A stretch of DNA of 64,000 nt from Nocardioides marinisabuli. Lineage in GTDB: Bacteria > Actinomycetota > Actinomycetes > Propionibacteriales > Nocardioidaceae. The stretch covers positions 806,001 to 870,000 of the forward strand of contig NZ_CP059163.1 in assembly GCF_013466785.1 (NCBI RefSeq), written 5' to 3'. Of the stretch, positions 36,402 to 45,031 are shown in pieces. A model generated the notes under the pieces. The model searched no databases, was not told where the DNA came from, and saw only the letters and a list, made by a program, of their open reading frames with translations. The position numbers and the translations under genes are program-made. How positions within the stretch are numbered: position 1 is the first letter of the stretch; the number at the start of each line of letters is the position of its first letter.

Positions 36402-37181
36402 TCAGCGACCGGCGTCGAGCGGGTCGAGCGCGAGGGTGTCGAAGACGTGCTCGGGCAGCGGCTGCGGCTCGTGCTTCTTGGCCAGGCGCACCTCCGAGTG
36501 CGCCCCGCAGCCGTGGTCGAGCGACACGACCCGCCCGTCGTCGTTGGCGTCGCCGTTGGCGCAGACGCCGAACGTCTCCGACAGCGGCCCGGCCAGGCGC
36601 ATCAGGAACCCGCACGACCAGCAGCTCTGCGGGGCCTGCTTGGCGATCGCCGACCCCGGGCCCTGGTCGCTGTCGTACCAGCGCTGGGCCGCCATGTCCC
36701 GCCCCTCGGGCGAGAGGGTGCGCACCCGGCCCAGACCGAGGTCCTGCGCCACCTGGCGCACCTGCGCCTTCTCGTCGGGGTCGAGCGGGTCGTCGCCGAA
36801 GGAGTAGGTCGGCACCAGGCGCGGGTCGTCGTCGTCGACCGGCAGCAGGTCGCCGGGGCCCATGTCGCCGGGCTGCATCCGCTCGCGGTAGGGCACCCAC
36901 GGCGGCGCGACGATCGCCTCGTCGCCGGGGATCAGCACGACCTCGTCGACGGTCACGTGCTTCTGGCGCGGCGCGCGCGCCACGGTCACCGACCAGCGCC
37001 ACCCGACGTACCCCGGCTGGGTGCAGGCGAACTGGTGGGTGACGACGCGCTCGGCCTCGACGAGGTGACCGAGGTGCTCACCGACGACGGCAGCACCCAC
37101 GTCGGAGACGAGGGCCTCGCGCGCCACCTCGGCGGCGGCGACGGCGACGGCATCGGGCTTGACCCGGGCGATGGTGCTCAC
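36402..37181 (-). CDS. DUF3027 family protein
   Basis: 259 residues. The conserved core includes HLGHLVEAERVVTHQFAC, GYVGWRWSVTVARAPRQKHVTVDEVVLIPG and a C-terminal zinc-ribbon-like cluster of cysteines (CWSCGFLMRLAGPLSETFGVCANG then HGCGAH). DUF3027 is a conserved actinobacterial family of unknown function. The CxxC...C...C pattern suggests a structural metal. The 3' ends of this gene and the methyltransferase converge 12 bases apart. Confidence 0.82.
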   Translation of the reverse strand: MSTIARVKPDAVAVAAAEVAREALVSDVGAAVVGEHLGHLVEAERVVTHQFACTQPGYVGWRWSVTVARAPRQKHVTVDEVVLIPGDEAIVAPPWVPYRERMQPGDMGPGDLLPVDDDDPRLVPTYSFGDDPLDPDEKAQVRQVAQDLGLGRVRTLSPEGRDMAAQRWYDSDQGPGSAIAKQAPQSCWSCGFLMRLAGPLSETFGVCANGDANDDGRVVSLDHGCGAHSEVRLAKKHEPQPLPEHVFDTLALDPLDAGR

Positions 37182-38895: not shown

Positions 38896-39291
38896 TCAGC
38901 GCTCGAGCTCGTCGGCGAGGGCGCGCAGCAGCTTCGCGGTGGGGGCGGCCGTACGCGCGTCGGGGTGGCGGCCGTGGCGGTAGGTCTCGCTGACGCCGTC
39001 GAGCAGGCGGATCAGGTCCTCCACGATCGGCGCCATGTCGTCGGGGCGCTTGCGGCGCGCGGCCTGCTGGTTGCGGCTGACCGAGGCGGGCTGGTCGAGC
39101 ACGCGCACCTGCAGCGCCTGGTCGCCGCGGCGGCCCTGGGCGATGCCGAACTCGACCCGGGTGCCGGCCTTGAGGGTCGTCGAGCCCTCGGGGAGGGCCT
39201 CGGCGCGCACGTGCACGTCGGGCCCGTCCTCCTGGGACAGGAAGCCGAAGCCCTTGTCGGCGTCGTACCACTTCACCTTGCCTCTGGGCAC
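38896..39291 (-). CDS. Cold-shock domain protein with a helical C-terminal extension
   Basis: 131 residues. Residues 1-68 are a cold-shock (OB-fold) domain: RGKVKWYDADKGFGFLSQED carries RNP1 (KGFGF), and DVHVRAEAL corresponds to RNP2 (VFVH), with V-to-V and F-to-V changes. The rest (residues 75-131, ARRKRPDDMAPIVEDLIRLLDGVSETYRH...AKLLRALADELER) is a predicted helical tail seen in longer actinobacterial Csp proteins. Binds single-stranded RNA or DNA. GTG start at 39291. Confidence 0.85.
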   Translation of the reverse strand: MPRGKVKWYDADKGFGFLSQEDGPDVHVRAEALPEGSTTLKAGTRVEFGIAQGRRGDQALQVRVLDQPASVSRNQQAARRKRPDDMAPIVEDLIRLLDGVSETYRHGRHPDARTAAPTAKLLRALADELER

Positions 39292-39383: not shown

Positions 39384-40110
39384 TCAGCGCTGCAGCAGGT
39401 CGGGCGCGAGGGTCGCGACGCCGACGACGAGCCCGGCGATGTTGGCCAGCAGCATCAGCAGCACCCAGACCACCGACGGCAGCCGGGTCAGGCGCGCCAG
39501 CTGGTCGGGGTCGGAGCCGCGACGCCCACGGGCGCCGCGGCCCCACAGCTCCAGCAGCGGGCGTGGCGCCGCGAGCAGCAGCAGCCACGCGACCAGGTGG
39601 GCCAGCACCGACTGGGCCAGCGGTGGCGCCCACCAGGTCACCGCCACCACGCCGGCGCCGAACGCCAGCAGCACCAGGACGCCGTACCCGTTGCGGACCC
39701 AGACCAGCAGCGAGACCAGGAGGGCGACCAGCAGCCACAGCAGCGCCAGCCCGCGCCCGTCGGCCAGCAGCAGCGCCGCGCCCAGACCGACCCCGGCGGG
39801 CGCCAGGTAGCCGGCGGCGAGCATCGCGACCATCCCGGGGGCCGCGGGGGCGCCCGCGCGAGAGCGTCACGCCGGAGGTGTCGGAGTGCAGCCGCACGCC
39901 CTGCAGACGACGCCCGACGAGCACGGCGACGACGGCGTGGCCGGCCTCGTGGACGACCGTGACGCCCAGCCGCACCCGCGGCCAGGTGCTCGGCAGCCAG
40001 ACCAGGACCAGGGCCAGCACCCCGGTCAGCAGCACCAGCGAGGCGTCGGGCAGCGGCTGGCGCGAGGTCACCTCGTCCCACAGCCGCGACACCACGTCGC
40101 GCGGGCTCAC
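39384..40110 (-). pseudogene. M50-family membrane metallopeptidase gene with a frameshift
   Basis: The GTG at 40110 opens a frame reading a membrane segment (LVLLTGVLALVLVWLPSTW), then TVVHEAGHAVVAVLVGRRLQ, the HExxH zinc motif of M50 peptidases, then LHSDTSGVTLSRGRP. The frame is then lost, and the continuation (GPGMVAMLAAGYLAPAGVGLGAALLL and four more hydrophobic segments to ALAPDLLQR-like end) is in the next frame from about 39841 on. A run of five G (39837-39841; C on the coding strand) has one base too many. It is either a pseudogene or a sequencing error. Its start overlaps the upstream HAD-LarE gene (GTGA). Confidence 0.8.
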
Positions 40111-41597
40111 CGCCAGCGCTCGGGCTCGTCGAGGAGCTCGTTCATCGAGCCCGACCGGAAGCCCCGGCGCGACAGCTCGGCCGTCGCGAAGCCCGTACGC
40201 CGCACGGCGGCGCACAGCTCGTCGACCAGCGCTCGGCCCTCGCCCAGCGGTCCACGCAGCAGCCCGGCGTCGACCTCGACCCGGGCGTGCTCCTCGCCGG
40301 GGCCGCCACCGAGGTCGCGCACCCGCAGGTCGCGAACCGCGACGCCGGCGCCGGCCAGCAGCTCGCGCACCGCGCCCTCGGCGCGCTCGACGCGGGCCAG
40401 CCGGTGCGGGGTGACCTCGATGCCGTAGGCGACCCGCGAGGACAGGCAGGCGGCGGCCGGCTTGTCCCAGGTCGGCAGGGCCCAGCGCCGCGAGAGCTCG
40501 CGCACCTGGGCCTTGGTCAGCCCGGCGTCGGCGAGCGGGGTGAGCGCCCCGCGCTCGGCGGCCGCACGGATGCCGGGGCGGAAGCCGGCGACCACGTCGT
40601 CGGCGTTGGTGCCGGTCGCGACGTGGGCCAGGCCGTGCTCGGCGGCCAGGGGCACGAGCGTGTCGAGCAGCTCGGCCTTGCAGAAGAAGCACCGGTCGCC
40701 CGCGTTGGCCCGGTAGCCCTCGCGCTCCATCTCGTGGGTCGGCGGGGTGAGCACCCGCACCCCCAGCGCCTCGGCGAAGGTGCGCGCCGGGTCGCGCTCG
40801 ATCTGCGGCAGCGCGTGGGAGTAGCCGGTGGCGGCCACGACCCGCTCGGGGCCCAGCGCGCGGGCCGCGGCGGCGAGCAGCAGCGCCGAGTCGGCGCCGC
40901 CGCTGTAGGCGACGAGCAGCGAGCCCCGCTCGCGCAGGTCGGCCTCGAGCGCGGCGGTGCGCTGCTCGAGCAGGTGCTCCTCGAGCCAGGGCGCGAACTG
41001 GTCGAGGTCGTCGAGCACCACGTGGGTGCCGGCGGCGAGCAGCTCCTCGCGGGTGGCCCCGCCGCTGAGCACCGAGACGCTGGTGGCGCCGGCCGCGAGC
41101 GCCCCCTCGACGTCGTGGACGTGGTCGCCGACGTAGATCGAGGCACCCTCGCGGCGCAGCACGTCGGCCTTCCCGACGCCCCACACCCGGCCCTCGACGA
41201 CGTCGACGTCGAGGGCGAGGTGCTCGACGTGCAGGCGGGCGTTGGGCGTGTGCTTGCCGGTGACGACCACGACCCGCCCGGCGTGGGCGCGCACCGCGGC
41301 CAGCGCCGCCGCGGCCCCCGGGAGCGAGGGGACGCTGCGCACGGCGCGCTCGGGGTAGAGCGCGCGGAAGCGGTCGACCGCCGGGCCGATGGCCTCCGCC
41401 GGCAGGTGCGGCTCGAGCATCAGGTCGAGGGGCGGGCCCAGGCGCGCGGTCATCTCGGCCACCGGCAGCACGACCCCGAGCTCGGCGGCCAGCACCTCCA
41501 GGACCTCGGCGATGCCCGGGCGCGAGTCGATGAGCGTCATGTCCAGGTCGAAGCCCACCACCAGCGACGGGGCCGCGGACGAGTTCGGGACGGACAC
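40107..41597 (-). CDS. Fusion of a HAD-family phosphatase and a LarE-type ATP-dependent sulfur transferase
   Basis: 496 residues. Residues 1-205 are a HAD hydrolase: FDLDMTLID at 16-24 with nucleophile Asp17 and acid/base Asp19, VVTGKHTP (motif II) at 112-118, and YVGDHVHD (motif IV) at 155-162. Residues 215-490 are LarE-like: PP-loop SGGADS at 232-237, CFFCK at 303-307 and KPAAACLSSRVAYG with Cys384. LarE donates sulfur to the nickel-pincer cofactor of lactate racemase; forms with CxxC plus this third Cys are reported to use a [4Fe-4S] cluster. No larA, larB or larC is near, so the product made is uncertain. The stop overlaps the M50 gene start by 4 bases. Confidence 0.85.
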   Translation of the reverse strand: MSVPNSSAAPSLVVGFDLDMTLIDSRPGIAEVLEVLAAELGVVLPVAEMTARLGPPLDLMLEPHLPAEAIGPAVDRFRALYPERAVRSVPSLPGAAAALAAVRAHAGRVVVVTGKHTPNARLHVEHLALDVDVVEGRVWGVGKADVLRREGASIYVGDHVHDVEGALAAGATSVSVLSGGATREELLAAGTHVVLDDLDQFAPWLEEHLLEQRTAALEADLRERGSLLVAYSGGADSALLLAAAARALGPERVVAATGYSHALPQIERDPARTFAEALGVRVLTPPTHEMEREGYRANAGDRCFFCKAELLDTLVPLAAEHGLAHVATGTNADDVVAGFRPGIRAAAERGALTPLADAGLTKAQVRELSRRWALPTWDKPAAACLSSRVAYGIEVTPHRLARVERAEGAVRELLAGAGVAVRDLRVRDLGGGPGEEHARVEVDAGLLRGPLGEGRALVDELCAAVRRTGFATAELSRRGFRSGSMNELLDEPERWR

Positions 41598-44406: not shown

Positions 44407-44991
44407 CTAAGCGAGTTTTTGCAATCCCGCCAGGTACTCGTGGGCGAGGTGCTCGTCCCAGCCGTGCGACTCCCCCAGGCCCCGGGCCATGGTGGCCAGG
44501 TACGTCGGCGAGGGACGGGTGCGCTCGGCGGTCGCGGCACCGTGCGGAGCGGTGAAGGTCAGCATCGGCGCCCCCTCGTGGCGGCCCACGTCGACCACCG
44601 TCTCGTAGGCCCCGGGCCCGGCCTCGTGGCGTCCCGCGGCCAGCGGGGCGAGCACGAGCTGCTCGAGCGGGTCGTCGGCGCGCGGCTCGCGGTGCATCTC
44701 CTGGGCGGCGATGTCGGCGAACTGGCCCGCGGTGACCAGGTAGCCGCGCGCCGCGGTGCGCCCGGGGGTCGCGTGGTCGTAGTAGGCGACCCCGCCGCCC
44801 CACTGGGCCGAGCGTCCCGCGAAGTAGGTGGTGCCCGGGAGCTCGACCGGCACGCTGCGCTCGGGCAGGGTCCGGTCGCGGGCCCCCGGGTGGCTGCGCG
44901 TGCCGCCGGGCGGGCGCCCGCCGGCGACGTAGCAGGCGAGGCGGTCGAGGCTGAGGTTGGAGCCGTAGGCGACGTACCAGACGTGGGTCAT
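44407..44991 (-). CDS. Gamma-glutamylcyclotransferase-like protein (YGSN motif)
   Basis: 194 residues. The N-terminal YVAYGSNLSLDRLACYVAGG carries the YGSN motif of the GGCT/AIG2 cyclotransferase fold; PVELPGTTYFAGRSAQWGGGVAYY and ARGYLVTAGQFADIAAQEM follow. Some homologues in databases are labelled histone deacetylase, but no deacetylase motif is visible. The reaction is unknown. ATG 44991 is used; a GTG at 45003 is possible. Confidence 0.6.
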   Translation of the reverse strand: MTHVWYVAYGSNLSLDRLACYVAGGRPPGGTRSHPGARDRTLPERSVPVELPGTTYFAGRSAQWGGGVAYYDHATPGRTAARGYLVTAGQFADIAAQEMHREPRADDPLEQLVLAPLAAGRHEAGPGAYETVVDVGRHEGAPMLTFTAPHGAATAERTRPSPTYLATMARGLGESHGWDEHLAHEYLAGLQKLA

Positions 44992-45031
44992 GACGCGACC
45001 CACCGTAACCAGGGACGGGGGCGGGCGCGGC

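Follow-up and report, generated by a model that had tools for sequence, protein, structure and literature searches.

Most LarE proteins belong to the three-cysteine type, in which the three cysteines hold a [4Fe-4S] cluster; sulfur is delivered from this cluster, and no cysteine is sacrificed (PMC9283937). In the LarE of Thermotoga maritima, single substitutions of these cysteines had mild effects (PMC9283937). In the LarE of Lactiplantibacillus plantarum, S180, R212, and R214 have been proposed as the residues that bind the phosphate of the substrate (PMC9283937). Here, we describe a LarE that forms one half of a larger protein encoded in Nocardioides marinisabuli, whose genome is a single contig of 4.17 Mb. 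The window, that is, the whole stretch of DNA that we analyzed, comprises 64,000 nucleotides (positions 806001 to 870000 of that contig).

A two-domain HAD-LarE protein

A previous reading based on sequence only had proposed that a single 496-residue frame joins a full HAD hydrolase to a LarE-like PP-loop domain, and both the open reading frame and the family matches bore this out. Residues 14 to 200 matched Pfam HAD_2 above the cut-off (E value, 3e-12), while residues 214 to 486 matched the NCBIfam equivalog TIGR00268 (LarE) with an E value of 1e-77 and 260.9 bits (cut-off, 150). The motif positions given in that reading, namely, those of D17/D19, SGGADS, CFFC, and Cys384 in ACLSSR, were all correct (Table 1). 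Motif conservation was counted over 108 fused, 27 HAD-only, and 18 separate LarE loci. The catalytic set of the HAD superfamily (DxD, T/S, K, and D) was complete, being formed by D17/D19, T113, K143, and D162, the last of which was conserved in 108/108 fused loci, with either Thr or Ser at position 113. Along similar lines, S232 and D236 of the PP-loop were retained in all 108 fused loci (G233 was conserved too), and every fused locus (108/108) as well as every separate LarE locus (18/18) had C303, C306, and C384.

Table 1. Coordinates within the window of the HAD-LarE gene, its domains and motifs, and two conserved neighbors
Feature	Position	Strand	Basis or remarks
HAD-LarE fusion gene	40107..41597	-	496 aa, GTG start; one ORF; 94 distinct fused homologues
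HAD half (residues 9-208), with the fold of C1-cap HAD phosphatases	40974..41573	-	HAD_2; 3mc1 match
HAD motif I, D17-L-D19	41541..41549	-	Kept in 108/108 fused and 27/27 HAD-only loci
HAD motif III, Lys143	41169..41171	-	Kept in 107/108 fused and 27/27 HAD-only loci
HAD motif IV, GDHVHD, residues 157-162	41112..41129	-	Motif conservation
Linker helix, residues 198-224, single and continuous, joining the halves	40926..41006	-	AlphaFold2 model, DSSP
LarE half, residues 208-496	40110..40976	-	TIGR00268 score; 5unm/8cnz structural matches
PP-loop SGGADS, residues 232-237, predicted ATP binding	40887..40904	-	Motif conservation
CFFC, residues 303-306, first two predicted [4Fe-4S] ligands	40680..40691	-	Alignment to C-x-x-C of 8cnz
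Cys384 in ACLSSR, third predicted [4Fe-4S] ligand	40446..40448	-	Alignment to third Cys of 8cnz
Cold-shock-domain-like protein, conserved neighbor of the HAD / HAD-LarE / LarE locus	38896..39291	-	Synteny; named by eye
DUF3027 protein, also part of the conserved block	36402..37181	-	PF11228, 2.4e-83; synteny

Structure prediction, which had been suggested together with the sequence-only reading, gave an AlphaFold2 model (pLDDT, 91.4; pTM, 0.86) with two well-folded domains connected by one continuous helix (residues 198 to 224), each matching its own family. Residues 208 to 481 matched LarE structures (5unm, Z score of 26.7; the [4Fe-4S] LarE 8cnz, Z score of 26.6), and residues 9 to 208 matched C1-cap HAD phosphatases with Z scores of 23 to 24, including 3mc1 (24.4) and AlnB. 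CFFC and Cys384 aligned with the cysteines of 8cnz, and those at the CxxC position are missing from the L. plantarum LarE. Thus, the assignment of this half to the [4Fe-4S] type on the grounds of its three cysteines stands, although not as a special kind, three-cysteine LarE being the common one (PMC9283937). The residues for the phosphate of P2CMN in L. plantarum LarE (S180, R212, and R214) align to S387 of an SSR motif and to R425 and R427 of an RVR motif here. Judging from these residues, the LarE half is predicted to bind the cluster and to carry out LarE chemistry.

A full-length single match to the fusion was found in 45 of 116 related genomes (57 to 100% identity), belonging to the same genus and two further families, and a search of named genomes also detected it in Kribbella, Actinopolymorpha, Marmoricola, Actinocatenispora, and others. 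The loci collected comprise 94 distinct fused proteins, from several actinobacterial families and at one conserved locus. A frame or assembly error, named in the sequence-only reading as what could undo the proposal, is ruled out because fused homologues occur in many independent assemblies. The halves do lie apart in close relatives, as one would expect if the joined frame were an error, and no other support was found; against this, the 94 distinct fused proteins are spread over many independent assemblies and families, and the LarE tree of the order fits few state changes, so that an error or a recent functionless accident is hardly credible. One locus considered as separate (L064) was rejected as such and is fused, since its stop comes only four codons after the match starts, right where the HAD begins. 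HAD-LarE is a genuine two-domain protein, widespread among soil actinobacteria.

Scattered lar genes and their co-occurrence with LarE

There are no lar genes beside the fusion gene in the scanned neighborhood because the genes of the pathway are scattered over the chromosome, not absent. The larB and larC genes are adjacent at C1:1.68 Mb, about 0.83 Mb from the fusion gene, and the gene for a LarA-family protein (PF09861, 143.5 bits) lies at 4.09 Mb. LarB reached 261 bits (cut-off, 175) and LarC 411 bits with PF01969, with both the LarC1 and the LarC2 models matching. The earlier observation that no lar genes lie nearby therefore holds for the scanned neighborhood but fails as a statement of absence. 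A LarE acting without LarB and LarC was ruled out, given that both are encoded in the genome and that the presence of LarE tracks them across relatives.

The search for the fusion across relatives and the mapping of larA, larB, and larC, proposed beforehand as a check, revealed that the LarE half tracks larB and larC almost perfectly. Among the 116 relatives, LarB and LarC were each present in 45/45 fused genomes, while genomes with a separate LarE had LarC in 14/14 cases and LarB in 13/14; in the fourteenth, a fragment of LarB lies at the end of a contig. Altogether, larC accompanied LarE, fused or separate, in 59/59 carriers, and larB, larC, and larA were found in none of the 33 HAD-only genomes. 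The Fisher value for this association between LarE and larB/larC in the 116 genomes (1.7e-34) ignores relatedness and overstates the significance because the tree holds only 4 well-supported independent pairs, all of them agreeing (P = 0.125 in the phylogenetically independent test). The pattern recurred in a wider draw of 198 genomes from the class, with LarC detected in 25/30 fused, 32/33 LarE-only, and 0/48 HAD-only genomes. The fused genomes without a LarC match (G516, G559, G577, G586, and G626) are mostly fragmented or incomplete assemblies, though the completeness of G516 (230 contigs) is 98%. In G520 and G539 (family f88) and in G587 (f89), LarC was matched but LarE was not at the thresholds applied.

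Genomes G028, G050, and G061, as well as the incomplete G004, encode LarB, LarC, and HAD-LarE, whereas LarA (PF09861) was not matched in them; the cofactor may therefore serve some other enzyme there. The first three could also be taken to indicate that the LarE half has another substrate and makes another thiolated compound. However, the equivalog-level LarE score, the conserved substrate-binding residues, and the near-perfect co-occurrence with LarB and LarC make this very improbable, and genomes with larB, larC, and larE but without larA were already known (PMC11796402). The LarE half appears to be a LarE of the ordinary [4Fe-4S] type with three cysteines, acting in the usual pathway to the nickel-pincer (NPN) cofactor.

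Separate histories of the two halves

The fusion is surrounded by a conserved block with the cold-shock-like protein, an MFS transporter, and the DUF3027 protein, with a helicase-like gene further off. The window also contains a 198-residue frame (44407 to 45003, minus strand) that has a homologue at the equivalent position in two relatives and gave no match in Pfam and NCBIfam searches.

The fusion locus is often occupied by a HAD-only gene in species of the same genus as the window, and the translations that were read stop at about residue 206 to 210, where the linker to LarE begins. Matches that continue beyond the stop in G034, G060, and G068 had suggested LarE remnants, an idea that was discarded since the translations show no LarE-like sequence. 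In another family of the class, genomes without LarE have a HAD alone (about 50% identical) in the same block (L149 to L154). In the HAD tree, the HAD-only genes were nested among the fused ones, with 12 state changes, at least 4 of them forced by well-supported branches, and a grouping of the sampled HAD-only genes of the genus in one clade was rejected (p-AU, 3e-10). Within the fused clade, the HAD-only state has thus arisen more than once. The reciprocal case is found in the LarE-only genomes G015, G052, G039, G011, and G001, where LarE is in the same neighborhood, larA, larB, and larC are present, and no HAD match was detected.

As for the fusion event, all fused proteins fell within one supported clade in the LarE tree of the order (three state changes), while the tree of the wider class, with nine state changes, is poorly resolved and therefore fits one or several events. 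In family f86 (L175 to L177), the two proteins are encoded by separate genes with a stop-start overlap of GTGA; such a pair could have preceded the fusion or could reflect subsequent splitting.

Free-standing HADs were also seen outside the usual block (L109, L112, L116, L113, L136, L142, and L137), and among these relocated genes, no neighbor was shared across different groups and none hinted at a substrate. One of these genomes, G051 (L116 and L117), has a compact larB-larE-larC cluster elsewhere, with larA close by; there, the fused LarE half was lost, and an operon LarE is present instead.

Because the HAD is kept without larB/larC and the NPN genes are kept without the HAD, the latter is a separable phosphatase-type domain, apparently dispensable for NPN synthesis. 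Its catalytic residues suggest phosphatase activity. Identification as a phosphoglycolate phosphatase was rejected, since TIGR01449 gave 51.6 bits, below the equivalog cut-off of 180. The proposal that the phosphatase serves the LarE pathway gains no support from this comparison, given that the HAD also occurs where LarE is absent and that genomes with LarE can do without it.

We also considered that the HAD half could work in the NPN pathway, removing by-products (PPi, AMP, or CMP) or dephosphorylating P2CMN, P2TMN, or damaged intermediates, with the fusion serving for channeling or proofreading. The retention of the fusion in many families with intact HAD catalytic residues (107 to 108 of the 108 loci), the overlapping HAD and LarE genes of f86, and the presence of AlnB (alnumycin P phosphatase) and a pyrophosphatase among the structural neighbors would fit such a role. 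Nevertheless, we deem it unlikely, considering that the HAD is kept in the absence of larB/larC by 33 members of the genus and by genomes of other families that have no LarE, that the five LarE-only genomes mentioned above have larA, larB, and larC without a HAD match, and that the structural neighbors, being general HADs, do not fix the substrate. A combined version is likewise unlikely. In it, the HAD half would be a dedicated phosphatase for proofreading or channeling in NPN synthesis in Actinomycetes, with PPi, CMP/AMP, or damaged pyridinium mononucleotides as examples of its substrates, and it would survive alone thanks to an additional, more general role.

A probable explanation: an ordinary LarE joined to a resident HAD

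The explanation that we favor, and regard as probable, is that of an ordinary LarE with scattered partners and an older separable HAD with an independent job, joined at one locus. The fusion, the families, the motif conservation, the co-occurrence, the synteny, and the repeated separate loss are the parts of it read directly from the genomes. The LarE half would carry out the ATP-driven adenylylation of P2CMN, the product of LarB, followed by two sulfide transfers from a [4Fe-5S] cluster to give P2TMN, which LarC would load with nickel for LarA, all these partners being encoded at other sites of the chromosome. In Actinomycetes, the HAD half is probably the older resident gene of the locus, of the phosphoglycolate/sugar-phosphate phosphatase type with a small C1-cap, to which LarE would have become joined, perhaps via an overlapping gene pair. 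Genomes that dropped larB/larC also dropped the LarE half and retained the HAD, and one clade dropped the HAD with its NPN pathway intact. Most likely, the HAD has an independent metabolite-phosphatase job. Points against this explanation are the small number of independent pairs and the five fused genomes without a LarC match. Moreover, the fusion has long been retained in many genera, hinting at some benefit of the linkage; co-translation, protein stability, or a weak benefit to the pathway are possible reasons.

The sequence-only reading had envisaged a new route to a thiolated cofactor, an idea that finds no support, with LarB, LarC, and LarA in the genome, a LarE that tracks LarB and LarC, and a separable HAD. 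The LarE enzyme and its pathway are already known, and what seems new is the two-domain variant; we found no description of a HAD-LarE fusion in open-access papers (subscription journals were outside that search). A large actinobacterial group would use a two-domain LarE to make the nickel-pincer cofactor, its gene lying far from larB, larC, and larA, and therefore annotation based on gene neighborhood misses the link. The repeated loss of either half at one locus is a natural experiment that tells which half serves the cofactor pathway; the genomes with half losses provide matched strain pairs for finding the role of the HAD, and the fusion genomes without larA are leads to cofactor users other than LarA.

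Among described systems, the LarE proteins of Thermotoga maritima and Methanococcus maripaludis (PMC9283937; 8cnz) share SGGxDS, the CxxC plus a distant Cys, and the fold of the whole half, but they are free-standing and have no HAD domain. The sacrificial LarE of L. plantarum (5udq/5unm) has the same fold and the equivalents of S180, R212, and R214, but it lacks the CxxC cysteines, sacrifices Cys176, is encoded in a lar operon, and has no HAD domain either. With C1-cap HAD phosphatases (the predicted phosphatase 3mc1, AlnB [4ex6/4ex7], and the phosphoglycolate phosphatases [PGPs] 2nyv and 2yy6), the HAD half has in common the fold and the Asp/Thr/Lys/Asp set, while differing in its fusion to LarE and in falling below the cut-off of TIGR01449 (PGP). 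Further counterparts are the free-standing HADs at the same locus in congeneric species and in other Actinomycetes (L108 and L149 to L154), 49 to 74% identical, with the same catalytic residues and in the same block, which end at about residue 206 to 210 without a LarE half and belong, where tested, to genomes without larB/larC.
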